Source of the DNA: Affinirhizobium straminoryzae
GTDB lineage: Bacteria > Pseudomonadota > Alphaproteobacteria > Rhizobiales > Rhizobiaceae
Direction: 5' to 3'
Assembly (NCBI RefSeq): GCF_007004135.1
Contig: NZ_VJMG01000003.1
Location: 1 to 64,000, forward strand
DNA: 64,000 nt
Positions 54,000 through 63,835 of this stretch are shown here, in pieces. Position 1 is the first letter of the stretch. Each line of letters begins with the position of its first letter. Under the pieces are notes generated by a model, which saw only the letters and a program-made list of their open reading frames with translations, did not search any database and was not told the origin of the DNA. The position numbers were made by a program, and so were the translations under genes.

Positions 54000-54035
54000 T
54001 GGAAGAAACACCGTCAGACCACCGCAGCGAAATGC

Positions 54036-54064
54036 TCGCACAAGCTTCGCTTCCTAAGGTGCGG
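54036..54064 (+). promoter_or_regulatory. Flagellar class-II-type promoter element upstream of fliF
   Basis: TCGCACAAG (54036-54044) and CTTCCTAAGGT (54050-54060) are separated exactly as in the element before flgF at 62972-63000. The downstream CG-T trinucleotide pattern also matches. It lies 50 bases before the fliF start. It is a candidate activator site for Rem or VisNR, the rhizobial motility regulators; identity is inferred. Confidence 0.6.
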
Positions 54065-54109
54065 TTGGGCAAAGGGCTCTTTAATCCTTTTTGACGGTGC
54101 GGGAACAGA

Positions 54110-55792
54110 ATGAATCTGTTAGCTCAATTCACACAAATCCTTAAGAATTTGGGATCGCTCGGACAGACCAAGCTGCTCGCTCTGGCAGGTGTCGGTGTTC
54201 TGTCGATGGCGATCGTGATCGCGGCGGCACTGTTCGTCAACAAGCCATCCTACGAGCCGCTTTACGTCGGTCTGGAACGTGGCGATCTCAATCAGGTCAG
54301 CGTCGCGCTGGCTGAAGCCGGTATCAATTTCGAGGTCGGGCAGGACGGCAGCAGCATTCGCGTTCCCGTCGGCATGACCAGCAAGGCGCGCCTGCTGCTG
54401 GCCGAACGGGGCCTGCCCAACAGCAGCAATGCCGGTTATGAACTCTTCGACAATGTCGGTTCGCTGGGTCTCACCTCCTTCATGCAGGAAGTGACGCGTG
54501 TGCGTGCGCTGGAAGGGGAGATCTCGCGCTCCATCCAGCAGATCAGCGGCGTTGCCGCCGCCCGCGTCCACATCGTCATGCCTGACGTCGGCAATTTCCG
54601 CCGGGCCGGCCAGAAGCCGACGGCCTCCGTGATGATCCGCGCCAGCAACGAGACAGGCCGCAAGGCCGCGACCTCGATCCGCCATCTGGTCGCCGCGGCC
54701 GTGCCGGGCCTGGAGGTGGACGATGTGACGATCCTCGATTCCACCGGCCAGCTGCTTGCGGCCGGCGACGAGGCGGGCAACAGCTCGGCCAGCCGTTCGC
54801 TGAACGTCGTGCAGTCCGTCCAGCAGGAACTCGAAAGCAATATCGACAAGGCGCTTGCCCCCTTCCTTGGCATGGACAATTTCCGCGCCAGTGCCACGGC
54901 GCTGCTGAACCTCGACAGCCAGCAGGTCCAGGAAGTGGTCTATGACCCGGAATCGCGCGTCGAACGGTCGGTCAAGGTCACCAAGGAAGCGCAGAAGTCG
55001 CAGCAGCGCCAGTCGGATTCGGCTGCAACGGTGGAGCAGAACATTCCGCAGGCCGCCCCCCAGCCGGGTGGCAACAACGGGCCTGAATCCTCCGATCAGT
55101 CGGACAAGAAGGAAGAGCAGACCAACTACGAAATCAATCAGAAGACCACGGCCACGACGCGCAACGGCTACAAGATCGAAAAGATCTCGGTTGCCGTCGT
55201 CGTCAACCGCGGCCGGGTCGCCAAGATGGTGGGCGAGCCCGCCGACCAGGCCAAGATCGATGCCTATCTCGCCGAGATGCAGAAGATCGTGGCAACGGCC
55301 GCCGGTGTCGATACGGCCCGCGGTGACGTGGTGACAATCACCGCCATGGACTTCCTGGAAAGCCAGCTTCTCGATGAGGCAGCCGCAGGTCCGGGCTTCT
55401 CCGAAATCCTGATGCGCAACATGGGCGGGATCATCAATTCGCTCGCCTTCGTCGCCGTCGCCTTCCTGGTCGTGTGGCTTGGTGTTCGGCCGGTGCTGCG
55501 CAGCGTCGGCGGCACCGCGGCCGTGGCCGGCGAGGCCGCCACCGAGAGTGCTGGGCTGGAACTGCCGGACTTCTCGCCGGGCGGTGCAAGCCCCGCCCTC
55601 ATGGACGGCTTCGGCTCCGATTTCGGGTTCGACGGTTCCTCGGATCTGTTCGGCGGCGAGGACGACCCGAATGGCGGCTTCAACCGCCGCGTCAAGGAAG
55701 GTCCGGAGAAGCGTCTCGCCCGGATGGTGGAAATCAGCGAGGAACGTGCCGCCAAGATCCTGCGCAAGTGGGCCGTCGAGCGGGCGGCGTAA
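54110..55792 (+). CDS. fliF: Flagellar M-ring protein FliF
   Basis: A 560-residue inner-membrane MS-ring protein. The first membrane helix is about residues 22-43 (LLALAGVGVLSMAIVIAAAL), the second about 438-462 (GGIINSLAFVAVAFLVVWLG). The periplasmic ring-building region contains EGEISRSIQQISGVAAARVHI and a long polar linker (about 290-350). The C-terminal cytoplasmic tail, GPEKRLARMVEISEERAAKI, binds FliG. It follows the che operon with its own promoter element and ends at a good terminator. Confidence 0.96.
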   Translation: MNLLAQFTQILKNLGSLGQTKLLALAGVGVLSMAIVIAAALFVNKPSYEPLYVGLERGDLNQVSVALAEAGINFEVGQDGSSIRVPVGMTSKARLLLAERGLPNSSNAGYELFDNVGSLGLTSFMQEVTRVRALEGEISRSIQQISGVAAARVHIVMPDVGNFRRAGQKPTASVMIRASNETGRKAATSIRHLVAAAVPGLEVDDVTILDSTGQLLAAGDEAGNSSASRSLNVVQSVQQELESNIDKALAPFLGMDNFRASATALLNLDSQQVQEVVYDPESRVERSVKVTKEAQKSQQRQSDSAATVEQNIPQAAPQPGGNNGPESSDQSDKKEEQTNYEINQKTTATTRNGYKIEKISVAVVVNRGRVAKMVGEPADQAKIDAYLAEMQKIVATAAGVDTARGDVVTITAMDFLESQLLDEAAAGPGFSEILMRNMGGIINSLAFVAVAFLVVWLGVRPVLRSVGGTAAVAGEAATESAGLELPDFSPGGASPALMDGFGSDFGFDGSSDLFGGEDDPNGGFNRRVKEGPEKRLARMVEISEERAAKILRKWAVERAA

Positions 55793-55823
55793 ATGGAACA
55801 ATGATCACGTTTTCGTGAAAACA

Positions 55824-55846
55824 AGGGCCGGCTCTGCCGGCCTTTT
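55824..55846 (+). terminator. Intrinsic terminator after fliF
   Basis: GGCCGGC (55826-55832), loop TCT, GCCGGCC (55836-55842), then TTTT. Located 33 bases after the fliF stop; a clear Rho-independent terminator separating fliF from visNR. Confidence 0.85.
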
Positions 55847-55854
55847 GCTTATCA

Positions 55855-55958
55855 GTTACATATCCCGTAACGTGCGATTGCAGAAACTGTACACTTGTTA
55901 CCAAGCTTTTTAGGAAAACTGAATCGGGTTGTGGCAATTCCGTGGCAGGTTCCTAAAA
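55855..55958 (+). promoter_or_regulatory. Repeat-rich regulatory region upstream of visN
   Basis: Three GTTAC/GTAAC sites occur at 55855-55859, 55867-55871 and 55897-55901. A perfect inverted pair, TTTTAGGAA (55908-55916) and TTCCTAAAA (55950-55958), has centres 42 bases apart, four helical turns, suggesting DNA looping or paired dimer binding. The rest of the 295-base gap shows nothing else. VisNR heads the rhizobial motility cascade, so control signals enter here. Confidence 0.45.
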
Positions 55959-56087
55959 TGACCATGATTCGGACGGGCGCTTCAAAGCGTTCTGATTCGA
56001 AACAGGGGTCGGTCAGCGCAGATGGCATTGGCGTTCGGATATGGCACGCGAGTAGCGAGTTTGTCCCTCGAAGGGGGTTGATGCGGA

Positions 56088-56825
56088 ATGGAGTTGCGCA
56101 GCGCAGAGACTACATTGGAAGGGCGGCATTTCGTTGAGGCCAGTCCGCCAAGAACGTTGCTGCGAGAGCAGGTTCTGCGCCGTCTCGCCCTTGCCGGCGC
56201 CTGCGGCAACATCCAGGCCGCCATGCGCATCCTGTCCGATTATGTCGGCGCCTCGCATTATCTTCTCGCGCGGTACGACCTGATCCAGGAGCAGGGTCTC
56301 GATTTCGTCGTTGCTTCCAACTGGCCCTTCGATCTCGTCCGGCGGTTGGGCGCGGAACTCGCCCGTGGCTATTCCCGCTCCACCGAGGTCGAGAAGTGCC
56401 TGTCGCTGCTGACGCCCCAGTTTGCGCTGCTGCCGGAAGATTACAGCCTGCCGGAAGACATCAGCCGGCAGTATTGCTCGCTCACCTTCTGCGCGGGCCG
56501 GACGCGCTTTTCTGTGATGCTGCTGTTTCTGGACGGCATCATCCTGTCGCAGGACCGCCTGCGCGAGATCGGCCTGCTGGCCGGCTATGCGCTCAGCCTC
56601 GGCGATACGCAGAATGCCCGCGTCGAGCGCGATTTCGAGCTGACGGACCGCGAACTGGAATGTCTTTTCTGGATTGCCGAAGGCAAGACGAGCGACGAGA
56701 TCGCCGTCATTCTCGGCATCTCGCGCAACACCATCAACAACTACATCACCAGCGTCATGCGCAAGACCGCGACCAAGACCCGCTCAGAGGCCATCGCTTA
56801 TGCCGTACGCAACAATCTTGTCTAG
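56088..56825 (+). CDS. visN: LuxR-type flagellar master regulator VisN
   Basis: A 245-residue transcription regulator. The N-terminal ~170 residues resemble an autoinducer-binding-like domain. The C-terminal LuxR helix-turn-helix begins FELTDRELECLFWIAEGKTS (about residues 182-201), with SDEIAVILGISRNTINNYIT as recognition region. VisN and VisR act together as the top activator of flagellar, motility and chemotaxis genes, through Rem, in Sinorhizobium and Agrobacterium. AGGGGG lies upstream of the ATG. visR follows after 10 bases. Confidence 0.93.
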   Translation: MELRSAETTLEGRHFVEASPPRTLLREQVLRRLALAGACGNIQAAMRILSDYVGASHYLLARYDLIQEQGLDFVVASNWPFDLVRRLGAELARGYSRSTEVEKCLSLLTPQFALLPEDYSLPEDISRQYCSLTFCAGRTRFSVMLLFLDGIILSQDRLREIGLLAGYALSLGDTQNARVERDFELTDRELECLFWIAEGKTSDEIAVILGISRNTINNYITSVMRKTATKTRSEAIAYAVRNNLV

Positions 56826-56835
56826 GGAAGGCTGA

Positions 56836-57591
56836 ATGGGCTACTCGCGAACCACGGGAGGAGAGCCGGAGACGGGAATGCAGTATCTTCGCGTTCAGCG
56901 TGCGTCCAGCCGTTCCGATATCTTCCCCAAGCTCGTGGGAATGCAGAAGAGCATGCGGGCGAATCACTTCGCCGTTTTCCGCATCGCCGGCGCCGGCCTG
57001 CCCAACAAGCGCAAGCTGGTCTGCGAGCTGGACAACTGGGGCAGCAGCGCGAGTGAAAACATCAATGTCATGATCGAAGCCTTCGGCGAGATGCTGATCC
57101 ATCACATCGATGTCTCGCTTCTGCCGATGAGCTGGTCCGGTCCCGAAGGCGGTCGCGCGGCCGAGACGGCGGCCGACGAGCCATCGCCGCTCATCCGCCA
57201 TATCGATGATCTGCACCGCATGCCCTATGGCGGCATCGCCTTTCCGGTCCGTCTTGGCGCGGTCGGCAACGGTTACGTGGCCTTCAGCGGTGCCGGGCTC
57301 GACCTTTCGAGTGACACGGTGATCGACCAGCATGTACGCAGCTGTCAGATCATGATGGACCTTCTTGCTCTCGACGAGCGGCGTGCCGTGCCCTCCGAAT
57401 CGCTCAGCGAACGCGAGATTGCCTGTCTGCAGCTTGCCGGGGATGGCCAGATCAGCGAAGAAATCGCCGAGAAGCTGGGCCTGTCCGTCCACACCGTCAA
57501 CGCCTATCTGGGCTCGGCGACGATCAAGCTCGATTCGGTCAACCGGATCCAGGCGATCGCCAAGGCGATCCGCCTGGGGTATATCCAGTAA
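56836..57591 (+). CDS. visR: LuxR-type flagellar master regulator VisR
   Basis: A 251-residue partner of VisN. The N-terminal domain (about residues 20-170) is a putative ligand-binding fold; the C-terminal LuxR domain begins LSEREIACLQLAGDGQISEE (about 188-207) with LGLSVHTVNAYLGSATIKL as recognition region. GGGAAGG precedes the ATG. The two proteins are thought to form a heteromer. visR is convergent with the 145-residue orphan gene, 26 bases away. Confidence 0.93.
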   Translation: MGYSRTTGGEPETGMQYLRVQRASSRSDIFPKLVGMQKSMRANHFAVFRIAGAGLPNKRKLVCELDNWGSSASENINVMIEAFGEMLIHHIDVSLLPMSWSGPEGGRAAETAADEPSPLIRHIDDLHRMPYGGIAFPVRLGAVGNGYVAFSGAGLDLSSDTVIDQHVRSCQIMMDLLALDERRAVPSESLSEREIACLQLAGDGQISEEIAEKLGLSVHTVNAYLGSATIKLDSVNRIQAIAKAIRLGYIQ

Positions 57592-57617
57592 ATCTTGCGT
57601 TTTTTGTCGAGGGAGTG

Positions 57618-58055
57618 TCAGCCAGCGAGTGCGGCGGGCTCCTTCACGAAGCGTGCGTCATGCAGGCTGCGCGACAGGAAGGCGGTGTTTTCCTGCGGGT
57701 CTTCCGAGGGAACCTGGAAGCTGATGTGGTCGATCTCAATGCCGGCCGTCTGGTCGGTCAGTGTCAGGCGGGCATAGACGGAGACGCCACGCGGCTTGAT
57801 CTCGAGATCGAGCACGACCTGCGGCGGGCCGTCCCATTCCAGGCGGTATTCGCCGCCGGAGCCGAAGTTGACGGTGCCGGGGTGAAAATAGAGCTCAGCC
57901 GCCGAGGACACGAGATCGGCAATGCTGCCATAGCGCTCCAGCCGCAGGAGCGAAATCAGGTCACCGGCATCCAGAAGCCGTAACTCGGTCGCCACCGGGT
58001 TGATCGCCTGCGCCAGAATCTTTTCTCTTTCTAACGAGTGGTTGCATTTTCTCAT
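57618..58055 (-). CDS. Conserved hypothetical protein in the flagellar cluster
   Basis: A 145-residue cytoplasmic protein with no recognised domain. It starts MRKCNHSLEREKILAQAIN; the middle has alternating strands (YRLEWDGPPQVVLDLEIKPR) ending in a charged C terminus. No signal peptide or membrane segment is seen. It lies 5 bases after flhB on the same strand, so it is probably co-transcribed with motA-fliM-fliN-fliG-flhB, and convergent with visR. A similar ORF occupies this place in rhizobial flagellar clusters, from memory; its function is unknown. The ribosome site is weak. Confidence 0.75.
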   Translation of the reverse strand: MRKCNHSLEREKILAQAINPVATELRLLDAGDLISLLRLERYGSIADLVSSAAELYFHPGTVNFGSGGEYRLEWDGPPQVVLDLEIKPRGVSVYARLTLTDQTAGIEIDHISFQVPSEDPQENTAFLSRSLHDARFVKEPAALAG

Positions 58056-58060
58056 GTGCT

Positions 58061-59137
58061 CTAGTGCATCCGTTGCTTGGGCGACCGCGAGGCGTAAACC
58101 CGGTGGATCAGTTCTGCCACGGCCTTGTAGAAGACCGGTGGAATGACACTATCGACCGAGACTTGCGCAAACATGGAGCGGGCAAGCGGGGGATCTTCGA
58201 ACACGGGAATGCCGGCTTCCTCGGCCAGCTCGCGGATTTTCAGCGCCACAAGGTCGGTTCCCTTGGCCAGAACGATCGGCGCATCGCTTTCCTCGCGCAC
58301 ATAGCGAAGGGCTACGGCATAATGGGTCGGGTTGGCGATGACGAGCGTGGCGCGCGGCACGTTTTTCATCATGCGGTTGCGGGCGCGGCTGCGCATCAGC
58401 GAGCGCTGGCGTGCCTTGACGGCGGGGTCGCCCTGCGCCTGCTTGTTCTCGTCCTTTACCTCCTGGCGGGTCATTTTCAGCTCGCTGTACCAGTGGTGCC
58501 GCGTCCAGAAGAAGTCGGCCACCGCCAGCGTGGCCGTGGCGAGAAGAATGATGACCATCATCTTCTTCACCGAGCCGTAGAGCACGCCCGGAATGGTCAG
58601 CGGATCGGAGAACATCGCATCGATCGCGTGGACGAAGTCGTTGCGCATGGCGAAATACATGACGACGCCGACCAGCAGCACCTTGAACAGCGACTTGCCG
58701 AATTCCACCATGCCGGGGATGGAGAAGATGCGGCCAAAGCCCTTGGCGAGCGAGACGCGCGACATCTGCGGCCGGACGCGCTCCAGGACCGGCGAGGGCA
58801 TGTTCTGCAGCACGGAGGAGGCGATGCCGAACAGGCAGAACATCAGCATGGCCGGGGCCAGGAAACCGGCCGAGGCCCAGGCGAGGTGCAGGCCGATCGA
58901 CACGACGTCGGTCGCGGTTTCGAGCCGCCACTGCTCCGGCTTCTCGAACAGGTCCTTCAGCGTTTCGCCAAGCGCTGCCGTGCGGTCGGGGAGAAAGAAG
59001 AGCACGAAGAAGTAAAACGCAAGAGACGACGCAAACAGTGTCGCCTCCTTGGAGAATGCCACATTGCCCTTTTCCGCGGCGTCGCGCAGTTTCTTGTGTG
59101 TCGGGCTTTCTGTTTTACTGTCTTTATCCTCGGACAA
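58061..59137 (-). CDS. flhB: Flagellar export switch protein FlhB
   Basis: A 358-residue component of the flagellar type III export gate. The cytoplasmic N terminus [19 protein letters not shown] is followed by four membrane helices (about residues 35-55, 90-112, 148-165, 190-212). The cytoplasmic domain has the autocleavage site N269-P270-T271-H272 followed by YAVALRY, which switches substrate from hook to filament. Translation starts at a TTG with AAGGA 7 bases upstream; no in-frame ATG fits. A 13-bp hairpin lies between it and fliG. Confidence 0.94.
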
Positions 59138-59212
59138 GGCGTCATCCTTGCGTCAGGCGGCATGCGCCGCGTCGGAGCGTTCCGGTCATGCCGCGCCCTC
59201 ATGGAGCGGCAA

Positions 59213-59241
59213 GGGCAAGGACGGCCTTGCCGTCCTTGCCC
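59213..59241. other. Perfect 13-bp hairpin between fliG and flhB
   Basis: GGGCAAGGACGGC (59213-59225), loop CTT, GCCGTCCTTGCCC (59229-59241), perfectly paired. It lies 14 bases after the fliG stop and 76 bases before the flhB TTG. No T-run follows leftward, so it is more likely a processing or partial attenuation element than a full terminator. Confidence 0.7.
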
Positions 59242-59254
59242 AGGTCGTGTGCCG

Positions 59255-60307
59255 TCAGGCGGCGGCTTCGGATGCCTTCTCGCCCTCTGGCTTGGCTTCC
59301 TTCAGCTGGATCTGGCCGGCATTGGCCAGGCGGATCGCTTCCTGCGCCACCGCACGGCGGGCGATTGCCACTTCGCGCGGGTTGATGGCGACGTTGGTCG
59401 CACCCAGATCCGATTCGATCATGCGGCGCTGGCGGGGGCTGATGGCCGACAGCACGGATTCCTTGATGTCGGCCGGCGCGCCGCGCAGCGCCATGGTCAG
59501 GATGTCGGCGGCGATGTCGTTCAGGAGCATCACGCGGCTGCGCTGCGGCATGGCCAGCAGATCCTCGAACAGGAAGATCTTCGGGCGAACCTTGTTGACC
59601 GATTCCTTGCTGATGGTCTCGAGCGAGCTGAGCAGGGTATCGACCTGCGGCTTCTCCAGCTCGTTCATCAGTTCGGCGACCTTGTTCGAGCCGTTCGAAT
59701 TGCGCTCGGCCTCGATCATCTGGATGAGCTCCATCACCCGGTTCTCGATGATCTGGGCGGCCTTCGGGCTGACATCCTTCATGTTGACCGTGCGGTTCAT
59801 GATGTCGGCGCGGCGGCTGTCCGGCATCTGCAGCAGAAGCTTGGCACCGAAGGACGAAGGCAGCATGGAGAGGATGTAGGCGATGGTCTGCGGATGCTCG
59901 CGCTGCAGGAACTTGCCGACGAATTCCGGATCGGCATCCTGCAGGCGGTCCCAGATCGAGGTCTCGTAGGCCTGGAAGGCGGTGCGGCGGCCGAGCAGGC
60001 CATCCACTTCCTCCGGCGTCAGGCCCTCCTCGAGAATGCTCTCGATGGCCTTGGCATTGTCCATCAGGCCGGCGCCCTCGGTGAAGAGGTCCTCGAATTC
60101 GTTGACCAGCTGGAGGAGTTCGTCCGGCGGAATTTCACGCAGTGTCTGCGCCGATGCGATGATCGTCTGCAGCTCGCTCTGCGTGAAATACTTCAACAGC
60201 TTTCCAGCCACCCCCTTGCCCATCGCAAGAAGGACGGCAGCGGCCTTTTCAGCTTGGGATAACGGTTTCGTGGAGACGGCGCTTCCGAAATCGTCAAAGT
60301 CCATCAT
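59255..60307 (-). CDS. fliG: Flagellar motor switch protein FliG
   Basis: A 350-residue switch-complex protein linking the FliF ring to FliM and the stator. The N-terminal FliF-binding part begins PLSQAEKAAAVLLAMGKGVA; the middle domain contains REHPQTIAYILSMLPSSFGA (the EHPQ motif, about residues 138-157); the C-terminal domain carries the charged torque helix DILTMALRGAPADIKESVLS. The C-terminal tail is short and Ala/Glu-rich. Two ATG codons occur in tandem at the start. It is downstream of fliN. Confidence 0.95.
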   Translation of the reverse strand: MMDFDDFGSAVSTKPLSQAEKAAAVLLAMGKGVAGKLLKYFTQSELQTIIASAQTLREIPPDELLQLVNEFEDLFTEGAGLMDNAKAIESILEEGLTPEEVDGLLGRRTAFQAYETSIWDRLQDADPEFVGKFLQREHPQTIAYILSMLPSSFGAKLLLQMPDSRRADIMNRTVNMKDVSPKAAQIIENRVMELIQMIEAERNSNGSNKVAELMNELEKPQVDTLLSSLETISKESVNKVRPKIFLFEDLLAMPQRSRVMLLNDIAADILTMALRGAPADIKESVLSAISPRQRRMIESDLGATNVAINPREVAIARRAVAQEAIRLANAGQIQLKEAKPEGEKASEAAA

Positions 60308-60334
60308 GGTCTTCCCTCACTGTCCCTCATGGGA

Positions 60335-60973
60335 TCAGACTTTCTTTGTGCTCAAGACTTCCGTCAGCTTCACGCCGAAACGCGTATCGTCATTTTCCAG
60401 AACGGTGATCTCGCCCCTGGCGATCCGCCGTCCATTCACCGTGATTTCCACCGGCTCGCCGATCTTCTTGTCGAGCGCGATGATGGCGCCCTCCTCAAGA
60501 CCCATGAGGCCGGAAACCTGCATGCGGCTGGTGCCAAGGACGATCTCGACCGTGATCGGGATGTCCATGATCAGATCGAGATTGGCCGTCAGCGCGCTGC
60601 CCGGCTCCTGCATGCTGGCTGCGCCGGTATCGCCACCGAAGCTTGCGCCGCCGAAACCGCCGCCGCCAAAATCCCCGCCGATATCGCCGCCGCCAAAGGC
60701 TGTGCCCCCGAGGTCCGGACCGCCGAAATCGGAGTCCAGGCTGGAGCCCATGCCAGCGCCCATGTCGAGCCCGCCGCCGAAATCGGAGGTGGGCATTGCC
60801 GTGTCGGTGCTGCCGAATTCGGAACCGAACTCCGCACCGAAATCGCCTGGTGCGCCATCCGAATCTGCCTTCAGCACCCCACGCAGGTCATCGATTGCCT
60901 GGTCGAGCTCCGACTCGTTGCCGAGCGGCGGGAAAGCATCCTCATCGGTCGCGGGTGTTTTCTTCGTAGCCAT
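60335..60973 (-). CDS. fliN: Flagellar motor switch protein FliN with FG-rich N-terminal extension
   Basis: A 212-residue FliN; the family is usually about 100-140 residues. The C-terminal SpoA domain (about residues 128-208) reads [20 protein letters not shown] and [20 protein letters not shown]. The N-terminal 125 residues are acidic, and residues 40-120 form a Gly-rich low-complexity tract with nine Phe-Gly dipeptides (DFGG, EFGS, AFGG, GFGG and similar). The C-ring function is conserved; the role of the tract is unknown. It lies between fliM and fliG. Confidence 0.93.
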
Positions 60974-61042
60974 GAGACCATTATTCCTGTTGAAACTTGC
61001 GCCAGGCTGCCCATTTGTGCGCTGCGGAAGGGGCGGCCCCGA

Positions 61043-61987
61043 TTATCCGATCAGGTGACGGATCAGCTCGTCCTCGGTGCTGACATTGTCCCTGACCCTC
61101 ACCGTGTACCGCTCGCCGGAGCGGCCGAATTCACAGTTGTACATATCCTTGCCGTTGGCCCGGACCTGTACCTTCACATCGTCCTTGTCCTCGAAGGGGA
61201 TGACATCGCCGACGGCGAGCCTGGAAATCGTCTGGAGTGCCAGTGTCTGCAGACGAATGCGGGCTTCCAGCGTCACCTGCGAGCGGTGCACCTGCTCCAT
61301 CAGCTTGTCGTGCCATTCCTGCCTGTTCTTGGCGACCTGGCCCTTCGGTTTCGGCACGACGACCTTGGTCTTCAAGAGCGCGCGCTGGGGAATGATCAGC
61401 GCGATTTCCGAGGTGACCTTCCCGAGATCGATCGCAAGCCGGATCGTCGCGCCATATTCCAGCGGCGCCTCCGGATCGGGGGCCGGGCGGTCGCCGGCAT
61501 TGTGGGGACGCTCCAGCAGCGGCTCGAAGCTGCCGGGCGCATTGACGCCGGAGCGCAGCACGTTGGCGATGCGCTCGAACACCATGGTTGCCAGGTCCAG
61601 CTCGATGTCTGAAAGCGGACGCTCCGGCGGTTGCTGCACCATGGATTCCTCGGCGCCCAGCATGCGTTCCATCAGCGCAATGACGAAGCCGCTGCCGCAG
61701 GCCAGCACGAAGTTCGGGCACCAGTTGCGCAGCTGGCCGTCGCTGAAGGACACCGTGTCGCCCAGTTCGGCGATCAGGTCGCGCATCAGGCCGGACTGGA
61801 AGCCGACATAGGAGACCTCGATGCCGATGCCCGTCTCGCTGTGGAACACATCCGGCAGGAAGACGGAATAGAGCTGGCCGAAGTCGCCGCAGATCTTCTC
61901 GACAGTCTTGCGGTCGCCCAGCCCGTTGGTCAGCTTGGCGAGAAGCGCGTGATCGATGCGCACAACGCTGTTCTGTTCGTCGCTCAT
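61043..61987 (-). CDS. fliM: Flagellar motor switch protein FliM
   Basis: A 314-residue C-ring protein that binds CheY-P and sets rotation direction or speed. It contains the CheC-like middle domain and a C-terminal SpoA domain ending with RVRDNVSTEDELIRHLIG; typical segments are VRIDHALLAKLTNGLGDRK at the N terminus and GDVIPFEDKDDVKVQV near residue 268. The N-terminal CheY-binding peptide of enteric FliM (LSQxEIDALL) is not obvious. The start lies 3 bases after the motA stop, so the two are coupled. Confidence 0.9.
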   Translation of the reverse strand: MSDEQNSVVRIDHALLAKLTNGLGDRKTVEKICGDFGQLYSVFLPDVFHSETGIGIEVSYVGFQSGLMRDLIAELGDTVSFSDGQLRNWCPNFVLACGSGFVIALMERMLGAEESMVQQPPERPLSDIELDLATMVFERIANVLRSGVNAPGSFEPLLERPHNAGDRPAPDPEAPLEYGATIRLAIDLGKVTSEIALIIPQRALLKTKVVVPKPKGQVAKNRQEWHDKLMEQVHRSQVTLEARIRLQTLALQTISRLAVGDVIPFEDKDDVKVQVRANGKDMYNCEFGRSGERYTVRVRDNVSTEDELIRHLIG

Positions 61988-61990
61988 GGA

Positions 61991-62869
61991 TCAGGCCGCC
62001 TTGCTTTCGCCACCACCACCGGGGTTCATCATTTCCTGCTCCACGGCGTCGATCGAGGGACGCTCGTAGCCGGAAATCGTCTTGCGGCCATATTCCAGCG
62101 CCACCTGCGGCACGGAGCCGTTCATGTAGGCGATCAGGGTCTGCTTCACGACGATGTAGAGACGATGCTGCTTGTTGCGGACGATCTTGATCTGCGAGCA
62201 GAGCGGGCTGACCACGCAATAGGACAGGAAGATGCCGAGCATGGTGCCGACGAGCGCCGCGCCGATCAGGCCGCCAAGCACTTCCGGCGATTCGTTGATC
62301 TTGGCCATGGCCTTGATGACGCCGAGCACGGCGGCGACGATACCGATCGCCGGGAAGGCATCGCCCATCGTCGCCATGGCGTCATAGGCCTTCATCTTGT
62401 CGTGCAGGATGGTCTCAAGCTCCTCGTCCATCAGCGCCTCGATCTCGTGGCTGCGCGCATTGCCGATGATGATCAGGCGTACATAGTCGCAGATGAAGGA
62501 GGTCAGTTCCTTGTTCTTCAGCACCGTCGGGGCCGCGAGGAAGATCGTGGATTCATCCGGGTTGTCGATATGGGCCTCGATCTCGTTGCGAGACTTGGTG
62601 CGCAGGTCGCGCATCAGCGAGTAGAGCACGCCGAGAACATCGAGATAGTTACGTTCCTTGGGAACGGCATATTTGAAGGCTTCGCCGAGCGCCTTGCCGG
62701 CATCCTTCACAGTTTTCATGGGGTTGGCCATGACGAAGCCGCCAAGGCCTGCACCGCCGATAATCACGAGTTCGAAGGGCTGTATCAGCGCCTCGATGTG
62801 ACCGCCCATCGCCATGAAGCCGCCGAGGATGCAGCCAAGTGTGATCACAAATCCGATAATGATGGTCAT
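61991..62869 (-). CDS. motA: Flagellar stator protein MotA
   Basis: A 292-residue proton-channel stator subunit with four membrane helices (about residues 3-23, 30-50, 170-190, 200-222). The cytoplasmic loop [20 protein letters not shown] carries the charged residues that contact FliG. The signature of family Mot[21 protein letters not shown], is near the N terminus. The ATG at 62869 gives the standard N terminus; a longer frame to 62965 is not supported. It heads the leftward motA-fliM-fliN-fliG-flhB transcript. MotB is not in the window. Confidence 0.94.
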
Positions 62870-62971
62870 CGCGTGCCCGTGCCGTCGTTGTAACAGGTGT
62901 CGGAATAGAGGGCGTGGCTTGCGTGAGGCTGGGTTCGGGTGCCGTGCTGGGGCATCCCGAAGCAAACAGTT

Positions 62972-63000
62972 TCGCGCAAGTCTGCCTTCCTAAGGTCCGC
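62972..63000 (+). promoter_or_regulatory. Flagellar class-II-type promoter element upstream of flgF
   Basis: TCGCGCAAG (62972-62980) and CTTCCTAAGGT (62986-62996), with the same 14-base offset as the fliF element, 105 bases before flgF and divergent from motA. It is oriented toward flgF-fliI. Conservation at two flagellar promoters is seen directly; the binding protein is inferred. Confidence 0.6.
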
Positions 63001-63100: not shown

Positions 63101-63835
63101 ATGCAGTCCGGATTGTATGTGGGCATTTCGTCGCAAATCGCACTCGAGCGGCGGCTGAACACGATCGCCGACAATATGGCCAACATGAATACGGTCGGCT
63201 TTCGCGCGACCGAAGTCAAGTTCGACGAGGTGTTGAGCAACACCCGCAACGACCTGAACGCCAAGGTGGCCTTCGTTTCGCAGGGCAACGACTATCTCTC
63301 CACGCGCAGCGGCGCGCTGGAGCGCACCGGCAATCCGCTGGATTTCGCCATCAAAGGCGATGCCTGGTTTTCCATCAGCACGCCGGCCGGCCGGGTTCTG
63401 ACCCGTGACGGGCGCTTTACCATGAAGGAAACCGGCGAACTGGTCTCCGAGCGTGGCTATCCGGTGCTCGATGCCGGCGGCGCTCCGATCCAGCTCAACC
63501 GCGCCGGCGGGCCGCCGGAAGTGGGCGCCGATGGCCGCATCACCCAGGATGGCCGTCCGGTCGCCACGCTTGGCGTCTTCAACGCCGACATTTCCAAGGG
63601 CTTCCTGCGCTACGAGAATTCCGGGGTGATCCCGGTCGATCAACCGCAGCCGGTGGTCGATGCCTTCAATGTCGGCGTATCCCAGGGCTATCTGGAGCAG
63701 TCCAACGTCAATGGCATCGGTCAGATGACGCAGCTCATTCAGGTCAACCGTGCCTTCGAGGGCATCTCGGCCATGATGCGCGACACCGAACAGAGCTTCG
63801 GCGAGGCGATCAAGACGCTCGGCGGCTCGCGCTGA
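63101..63835 (+). CDS. flgF: Flagellar basal-body rod protein FlgF
   Basis: A 244-residue proximal-rod protein. The N-terminal rod segment is QIALERRLNTIADNMANMNT with VGFRATEVKFDEVLS following; the C-terminal Flg_bbr segment is GYLEQSNVNGIGQMTQLIQV, and the ending YENSGVIPVDQP region is family-typical. It is exported through the type III apparatus and has no signal peptide. GGAGG lies 9 bases before the ATG. fliI follows after 18 bases, and the class-II-type element precedes the gene. Confidence 0.94.
   Translation: MQSGLYVGISSQIALERRLNTIADNMANMNTVGFRATEVKFDEVLSNTRNDLNAKVAFVSQGNDYLSTRSGALERTGNPLDFAIKGDAWFSISTPAGRVLTRDGRFTMKETGELVSERGYPVLDAGGAPIQLNRAGGPPEVGADGRITQDGRPVATLGVFNADISKGFLRYENSGVIPVDQPQPVVDAFNVGVSQGYLEQSNVNGIGQMTQLIQVNRAFEGISAMMRDTEQSFGEAIKTLGGSR

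Follow-up and report, generated by a model that had tools for sequence, protein, structure and literature searches.

Tandem direct repeats upstream of flagellar operons in Affinirhizobium straminoryzae and its relatives: a predicted Rem box

Results

The DNA analyzed here, the first 64,000 nucleotides of contig NZ_VJMG01000003.1 from Affinirhizobium straminoryzae (64 kb, referred to below as the window), carries flagellar genes, two of which, fliF and flgF, are preceded by copies of the same short element. The first gene 3′ of one copy is fliF (54110..55792, plus strand; Pfam YscJ_FliF and YscJ_FliF_C), and the other copy leads to flgF (63101..63835, plus strand; Flg_bb_rod and Flg_bbr_C). A pair of LuxR-type regulator genes, which we take to be visN and visR, occupies positions 56088..57591 of the plus strand, with a GerE domain in each product, and the presumed rem gene lies in the same cluster at C71:94586-95257 (Trans_reg_C, an OmpR-type DNA-binding domain, with a receiver match below the Pfam cut-off). 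In rhizobia and agrobacteria, flagella are under the class IB activator Rem. The identities of fliF, flgF, motA, motB, and flhA and the regulator domains are confirmed by Pfam; orf38, rem, visN, visR, flgE, flgB, and flgJ-like are labels that we assigned, some of them from the translations.

The two copies, TCGCACAAGCTTCGCTTCCTAAGGT (54036-54060, +) and TCGCGCAAGTCTGCCTTCCTAAGGT (62972-62996, +), both match the search pattern without mismatch and are the only ones in the window at up to three mismatches, compared with an expectation of 0.01 from shuffled sequence. The boxes to which they belong start 81 bp 5′ of the fliF ATG (54110) and 136 bp 5′ of the flgF ATG (63101), each facing its gene. 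The first-pass annotation of this DNA had described an element of fixed geometry before these two genes and had judged two such copies improbable by chance, and both statements are borne out. When all 137 contigs of the genome (5.55 Mb) were searched with the same tolerance, two further matches were obtained, compared with one for the reversed pattern. One is a close third copy with a single mismatch at C71:88841, outside the window and 5′ of orf38-motB; the other, on C58 with three mismatches, reads as an ABC-ATPase coding stretch.

The unit consists of two 11-bp direct repeats, approximately GCMAGCYTCGC|GCAAGCTTCGC, followed by 4 bp and then by a −10-like TAnnnT. The fliF box is GAAATGCTCGC|ACAAGCTTCGC (54029..54050, +; exact match), with the −10-like hexamer TAAGGT of a putative fliF promoter at 54055..54060 (+); the flgF box is AACAGTTTCGC|GCAAGTCTGCC (62965..62986, +; exact match), with the same hexamer, of a putative flgF promoter, at identical spacing (62991..62996, +). 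Across 16 sites of this genome, the majority repeats are GCCAGCCTCGC and GCAAGCTTCGC, and identity at lag 11 is 0.51, a value not fully independent in that most of these sites had been chosen by a matrix already set to this register; the remaining lags in the 5 to 15 range give 0.17 to 0.35. This is the direct-repeat geometry of OmpR/PhoB-type regulators (10 to 11 bp apart), and it is seen in foreign genomes too; the inverted-repeat symmetry of a VisNR site was not found in the element, which has tandem repeats instead.

Conservation was examined in named Rhizobiaceae loci around FliF (best 80 of 576; 78 distinct sequences). The core TCGC[AG]CAAG[CT]TTC is present upstream of fliF in 80/80 loci, 70 to 77 bp 5′ of the start in 77 and 110 bp 5′ of a late-starting match in three. 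In the 78 distinct sites, a near-invariant stretch from CGAAACG to TTCG is followed by four loose bases and then by cTAnnGT, with conservation dropping further out. The TA at positions 19-20 (the T and A of TAnnGT) is invariant in 78/78 sites, which had not been selected for it, and the spacing to the −10-like element is thus fixed at fliF; the flgF, orf38, and flhA sites were excluded from this comparison because CTA belonged to their search pattern. The shared downstream block of the first-pass annotation, CTTCCTAAGGT, is indeed identical at the two sites, but partly by luck: only cTAnnGT of this block is kept across the fliF loci, so the block is mostly the −10-like part, and it was dropped as an independent half. 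TAnnnT would be the putative −10.

We trained a matrix on 96 sites from the fliF, flgF, orf38, and flhA operons and scanned 77 kb of the same contig with it. The fliF and flgF boxes, both training sites, score 40.5 and 35.2, respectively. Sites outside the training set were found upstream of flgE (19.8), flagellin (16.7), motA (16.1), and flgB (15.5), and weaker ones upstream of fliN (11.1) and a flgJ-like gene (9.9), each facing its gene. The motA box, CCCAGCCTCAC|GCAAGCCACGC (62912..62933, −), diverges from the flgF box within a common intergenic region; the −10-like hexamer TATTCC of a putative motA promoter (62902..62907, −), spaced as at the other sites, separates it from motA (61991..62869, −; Pfam MotA_N and MotA_ExbB). 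The candidate box 5′ of fliN, GGCAGCCTGGC|GCAAGTTTCAA, is at 60990..61011 (−). At scores of at least 9.5, the flagellar 62 kb holds 16 matches (4 training sites, 6 new, 5 within a group of inserted genes, and 1 false match in flhB); none was found in window positions 1-45000 (2 at scores of at least 7.5) or in the 15 kb behind the flagellar segment, and permuted matrix columns gave a mean of 0.7 and a maximum of 4 matches. The match at 58146 (−), together with recurrent minus-strand matches about 4 to 6 kb past fliF in the named loci, was read as FlhB coding sequence and set aside.

In the named loci, the sequence 5′ of motA reaches a score of at least 5 in 57/58 and of at least 9.5 in 51/58, compared with 0/58 inside the gene. 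For flgF, at least 9.5 was reached within 220 bp in 30/56 loci. The fliN site is less sure, with 1 of 58 loci scoring at least 9.5 and 23 at least 5, and none inside the gene. The inserted group, outside the window (C71:72322-85156; L006 and L007), comprises glycosyltransferase-like and other genes placed before the flagellin genes and has candidate boxes at 73352 (−), 76766 (−), 76847 (+), 81535 (+), and 85029 (−). It is possible that the glycosyltransferase-like genes serve flagellin modification under the same control.

In the genus (24 genomes, our own included), YTCGCRCAAG-N9-CTA gave 80 mismatch-free matches compared with 38 for the reversed pattern (summed). Fifty-five of these lie less than 60 kb from fliF, 55/55 on the same strand as fliF: 14 at fliF, 12 at the flgF-operon position, 17 at orf38, 11 at flhA, and 1 at a giant-repeat gene. 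Seven of the 12 flgF-operon-position sites lead straight to flgF and five have no FlgF match in the fetched 600 bp; a different gene comes first in the two of these five that were translated. Among the remaining 25 matches, six precede flhA, orf38, or flgF on separate contigs and two precede the giant repeat gene.

At L166, L176, L183, and L061, the last at −7714 from fliF, the box stands in front of a gene for a giant repeat protein (MTTTISSLSVTQIRSLST..., 2451 amino acids in L061). A recurring TTCGCGCAAGSCTCGC--GCTA, with no flagellar match beside it, was noted in several congeneric genomes (L178, L179, L184, and L187). In A. straminoryzae itself, no motility gene was seen beside the pattern matches at C102:1258 and C119:32527. 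The genus-type pattern at C75:61801-61822 (L275; matrix score 13.7) lies 5′ of a short reading frame, MAKYKYQQHLV..., and at C82:2096-2123 (L303) a three-mismatch box followed by GTTAACC, which may be due to chance, precedes a gene read as minC.

A further pattern match in the same genome, at C89:48082, is its sole mismatch-free tandem. The box is followed by a reading frame of 95 amino acids (G000:C89:48076-48425; L276 and L278), located after a gene that reads like GGDEF; it matches nothing in Pfam, and NCBIfam gave no match close to its cut-off. The frame was present in 21 of the 23 genomes searched, namely all 21 congeneric ones (out of 24 in the genus, and including our own) and neither of the two others, and the tandem lies 55 to 62 bp upstream of it in 21/21 of these congeneric genomes. 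The gene is a candidate new Rem target.

Across the order, a strong Rem match was found in 24 of 121 genomes and a FliF match in 86; FliF proteins of 41 to 100% identity are found in rem-positive genomes and those of 28 to 33% mostly in rem-negative ones. In the flagellar clusters fetched from 16 rem-positive genomes (716 kb), the tandem with up to one mismatch gave 24 matches compared with 0 for the reversed pattern, distributed over 10/16 genomes, including 9 of the 14 that lack visN. In 20 flagellar clusters without rem (398 kb, from 19 rem-negative genomes plus the second cluster, L269, of a rem-positive genome) it gave none, compared with 2 reversed. At exactly two mismatches the excess was smaller, with 54 versus 24 reversed matches in rem-positive clusters and 15 versus 9 in those without rem. 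A flagellar neighbor is easily expected in clusters chosen as flagellar, the controls being the reversed pattern and the rem-less clusters; by gene, the 24 matches fall to fliF (10), flagellins (4), CheY-like genes (3), flgJ-like genes (2, one weak), and other cluster genes (3), with 2 unassigned.

Directly upstream of fliF, the tandem with up to one mismatch was present in 11/18 rem-positive cases versus 0/28 others (Fisher p 2.4e-6, uncorrected for kinship, the 18 including close relatives), and with up to three mismatches in 13/18 versus 3/28. The 18 are the 24 rem-positive genomes less our own, four for which no FliF match was listed, and one whose sole FliF is of the other type; L127 (short flank) and L250-L254 (fliF present as other loci) were dropped before the 28 non-rem cases were counted, and L269 is one of these 28. 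The genome with two FliF proteins carries the box at its Rem-type fliF (L221) and none at up to one mismatch in the other cluster (L269). The tandem is often purer in visN-less rem-positive genomes, e.g., GCAACGCTCGC|GCAAGCTCGGT 5′ of fliF. No tandem with up to one mismatch was found upstream of rem in any of 18 genomes (a visN-less one has it with two mismatches), and Rem autoregulation through the box was discarded on these grounds.

Discussion

With the sequence, tandem architecture, spacing, orientation, conservation, and association with rem observed here, the element very probably serves the flagellar class II regulon as its joint operator and promoter, a predicted “Rem box” with Rem as the putative binder and activator. 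Rem is favored over VisNR because of the contrast between rem-positive and rem-negative clusters, the visN-less genomes that have the tandem, and the OmpR-type tandem architecture. Two Rem molecules, winged-helix proteins of the OmpR/PhoB type, would bind the adjacent repeats (about GCAAGYTTCGC) in head-to-tail order, both on the same DNA face. The box would occupy the place of the −35, with the TAnnnT 4 bp downstream serving as −10, and Rem would recruit or hold RNA polymerase at this adjacent −10 without a −35, much like PhoB. In the direction of each box, it would switch on the fliF, flgF, and flgB operons, motA, orf38-motB, flgE, and flhA. Rem reportedly activates class II genes, orf38 and fliM among them (PMC8429497), and the FtcR-like ActR of Azorhizobium is reported to be needed for full expression of fliF and motB (PMC8639532). 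The box precedes orf38 directly, as well as motA, which lies ahead of fliM on the same strand, probably in a joint operon.

Moderately likely, too, is a broader reading in which Rem-type flagellar regulons throughout the order are marked by this box as a general Rem operator that had not been defined before and that predates VisNR. Unsuspected members of these regulons would then include the 95-amino-acid protein, the glycosyltransferase-like genes, and the giant repeat proteins. No Rem binding consensus was encountered in the accessible parts of the literature searched on Rem, VisNR, FtcR, and LafR, and primary papers may already print the site; a start-site study of Sinorhizobium meliloti gives three new motifs, none of them, in the text available, like the box (PMC3616915). 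If the box is so defined, the Rem regulon would become readable from sequence, new motility genes predictable, and Rem and VisNR targets separable. Should a definition of the site already stand in the primary papers, its wider distribution and the additional genes would be what remains.

The first-pass annotation had proposed “a Rem or VisNR site,” of which the Rem half is well supported by the 11-bp tandem, by the comparison of rem-positive with rem-negative clusters, and by the class II-type operons involved. The VisNR half is disfavored by the visN-less genomes with the tandem, the lack of a palindrome, and the lack of a box 5′ of rem in the three visN-bearing genomes examined. Direct binding by VisNR, a LuxR-type heterodimer, with the near-palindrome YTCGCRCAAG as its site, would fit the location of visN and visR next to fliF and the resemblance, by inspection, of YTCGCRCAAG to the palindrome CTTGCGCAAG. 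The second base of TCGC, however, is C in 80/80 named fliF loci where the palindrome needs T, and VisN is present over most of its length in only 4 of the 24 rem-positive genomes, the other 20 giving only LuxR-helix matches (VisR was not searched). The palindromic reading of YTCGCRCAAG was dropped because visN-less genomes keep the tandem, several of them with both GCAA repeats intact but with altered inner bases. rem itself is named as a VisNR target in PMC8429497; upstream of rem in three visN-bearing genomes, the best tandem has 4 to 5 mismatches and the best genus-type pattern 3 to 6, although three genomes say little about VisNR. On balance, we regard direct VisNR binding as improbable.

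Use of the element by a different OmpR-family or global regulator (e.g., CtrA) or by a special sigma factor appears just as improbable. By inspection the sequence is not that of the CtrA box, TTAA-N7-TTAA being absent from the 16 listed boxes, and the site of a regulator that every relative shares would not be expected to be confined to rem-type clusters, even if any OmpR-family protein could use an 11-bp tandem and, in S. meliloti, flaA, flaC, and flaD are reported to have CtrA motifs nearby (PMC3616915). That only two exact copies lie in the window might suggest chance similarity or the functionless remnant of a local duplication, but the shuffle expectation, the conservation of the box and not of its flanks, and its occurrence before different operons and in distant genomes make this explanation vanishingly unlikely.

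Several observations nevertheless weigh against the Rem box interpretation. Seven of the 18 rem-positive fliF regions have no tandem at up to two mismatches; the genus-type pattern is present exactly in two of them and with 2 mismatches in a third, and four have neither. The rem-positive genomes follow one FliF lineage, and box, rem, and cluster may descend together. A family scan with the 23-bp core at up to one mismatch found it in 9/151 genomes, with 11 pattern matches in total (3 in our own genome) compared with 21 reversed-pattern matches (summed); six of the 8 foreign matches read as 5′ of fliF (2), flgB (2), flhA, and orf38-motB and two as coding. The strict form is therefore taken to be largely genus level, and the genome scan suggested in the first pass, while successful in our own genome and the genus, finds the strict pattern rare in the wider family. 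Within the genus, 17 of the 25 matches outside the 60 kb around fliF have no assigned flagellar gene (14 looked at, 3 not fetched). A last point comes from FtcR of Brucella melitensis, a relative of Rem. FtcR is described as a master regulator of flagella with binding 5′ of fliF, but the motif from chromatin immunoprecipitation, TGTGGGCA, does not resemble the box (PMC9456535), and inspection of the 16 listed boxes did not show it in any of them. A heptamer that shares seven of its eight bases, TGTGGGC, lies 131 bp 5′ of rem (G000:C71); it occurs in 2/18 rem upstream regions.

As for other known systems, the CtrA box resembles the candidate Rem box in having tandem half-sites one turn apart that are recognized by an alphaproteobacterial OmpR-family regulator, but the TTAA half-sites belong to CtrA. 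PhoB recruits RNA polymerase at pho promoters. The pho box offers a similar layout, with two 11-bp direct repeats near the −10 in place of the −35, although the candidate Rem repeat GCAAGYTTCGC differs from the CTGTCAT of pho; the proteins differ as well, Rem being reported as active without phosphorylation (PMC9812332). The class II genes of S. meliloti provide a further likeness, orf38 and fliM being reported targets of Rem there (PMC8429497) and boxes standing here before orf38 and motA.

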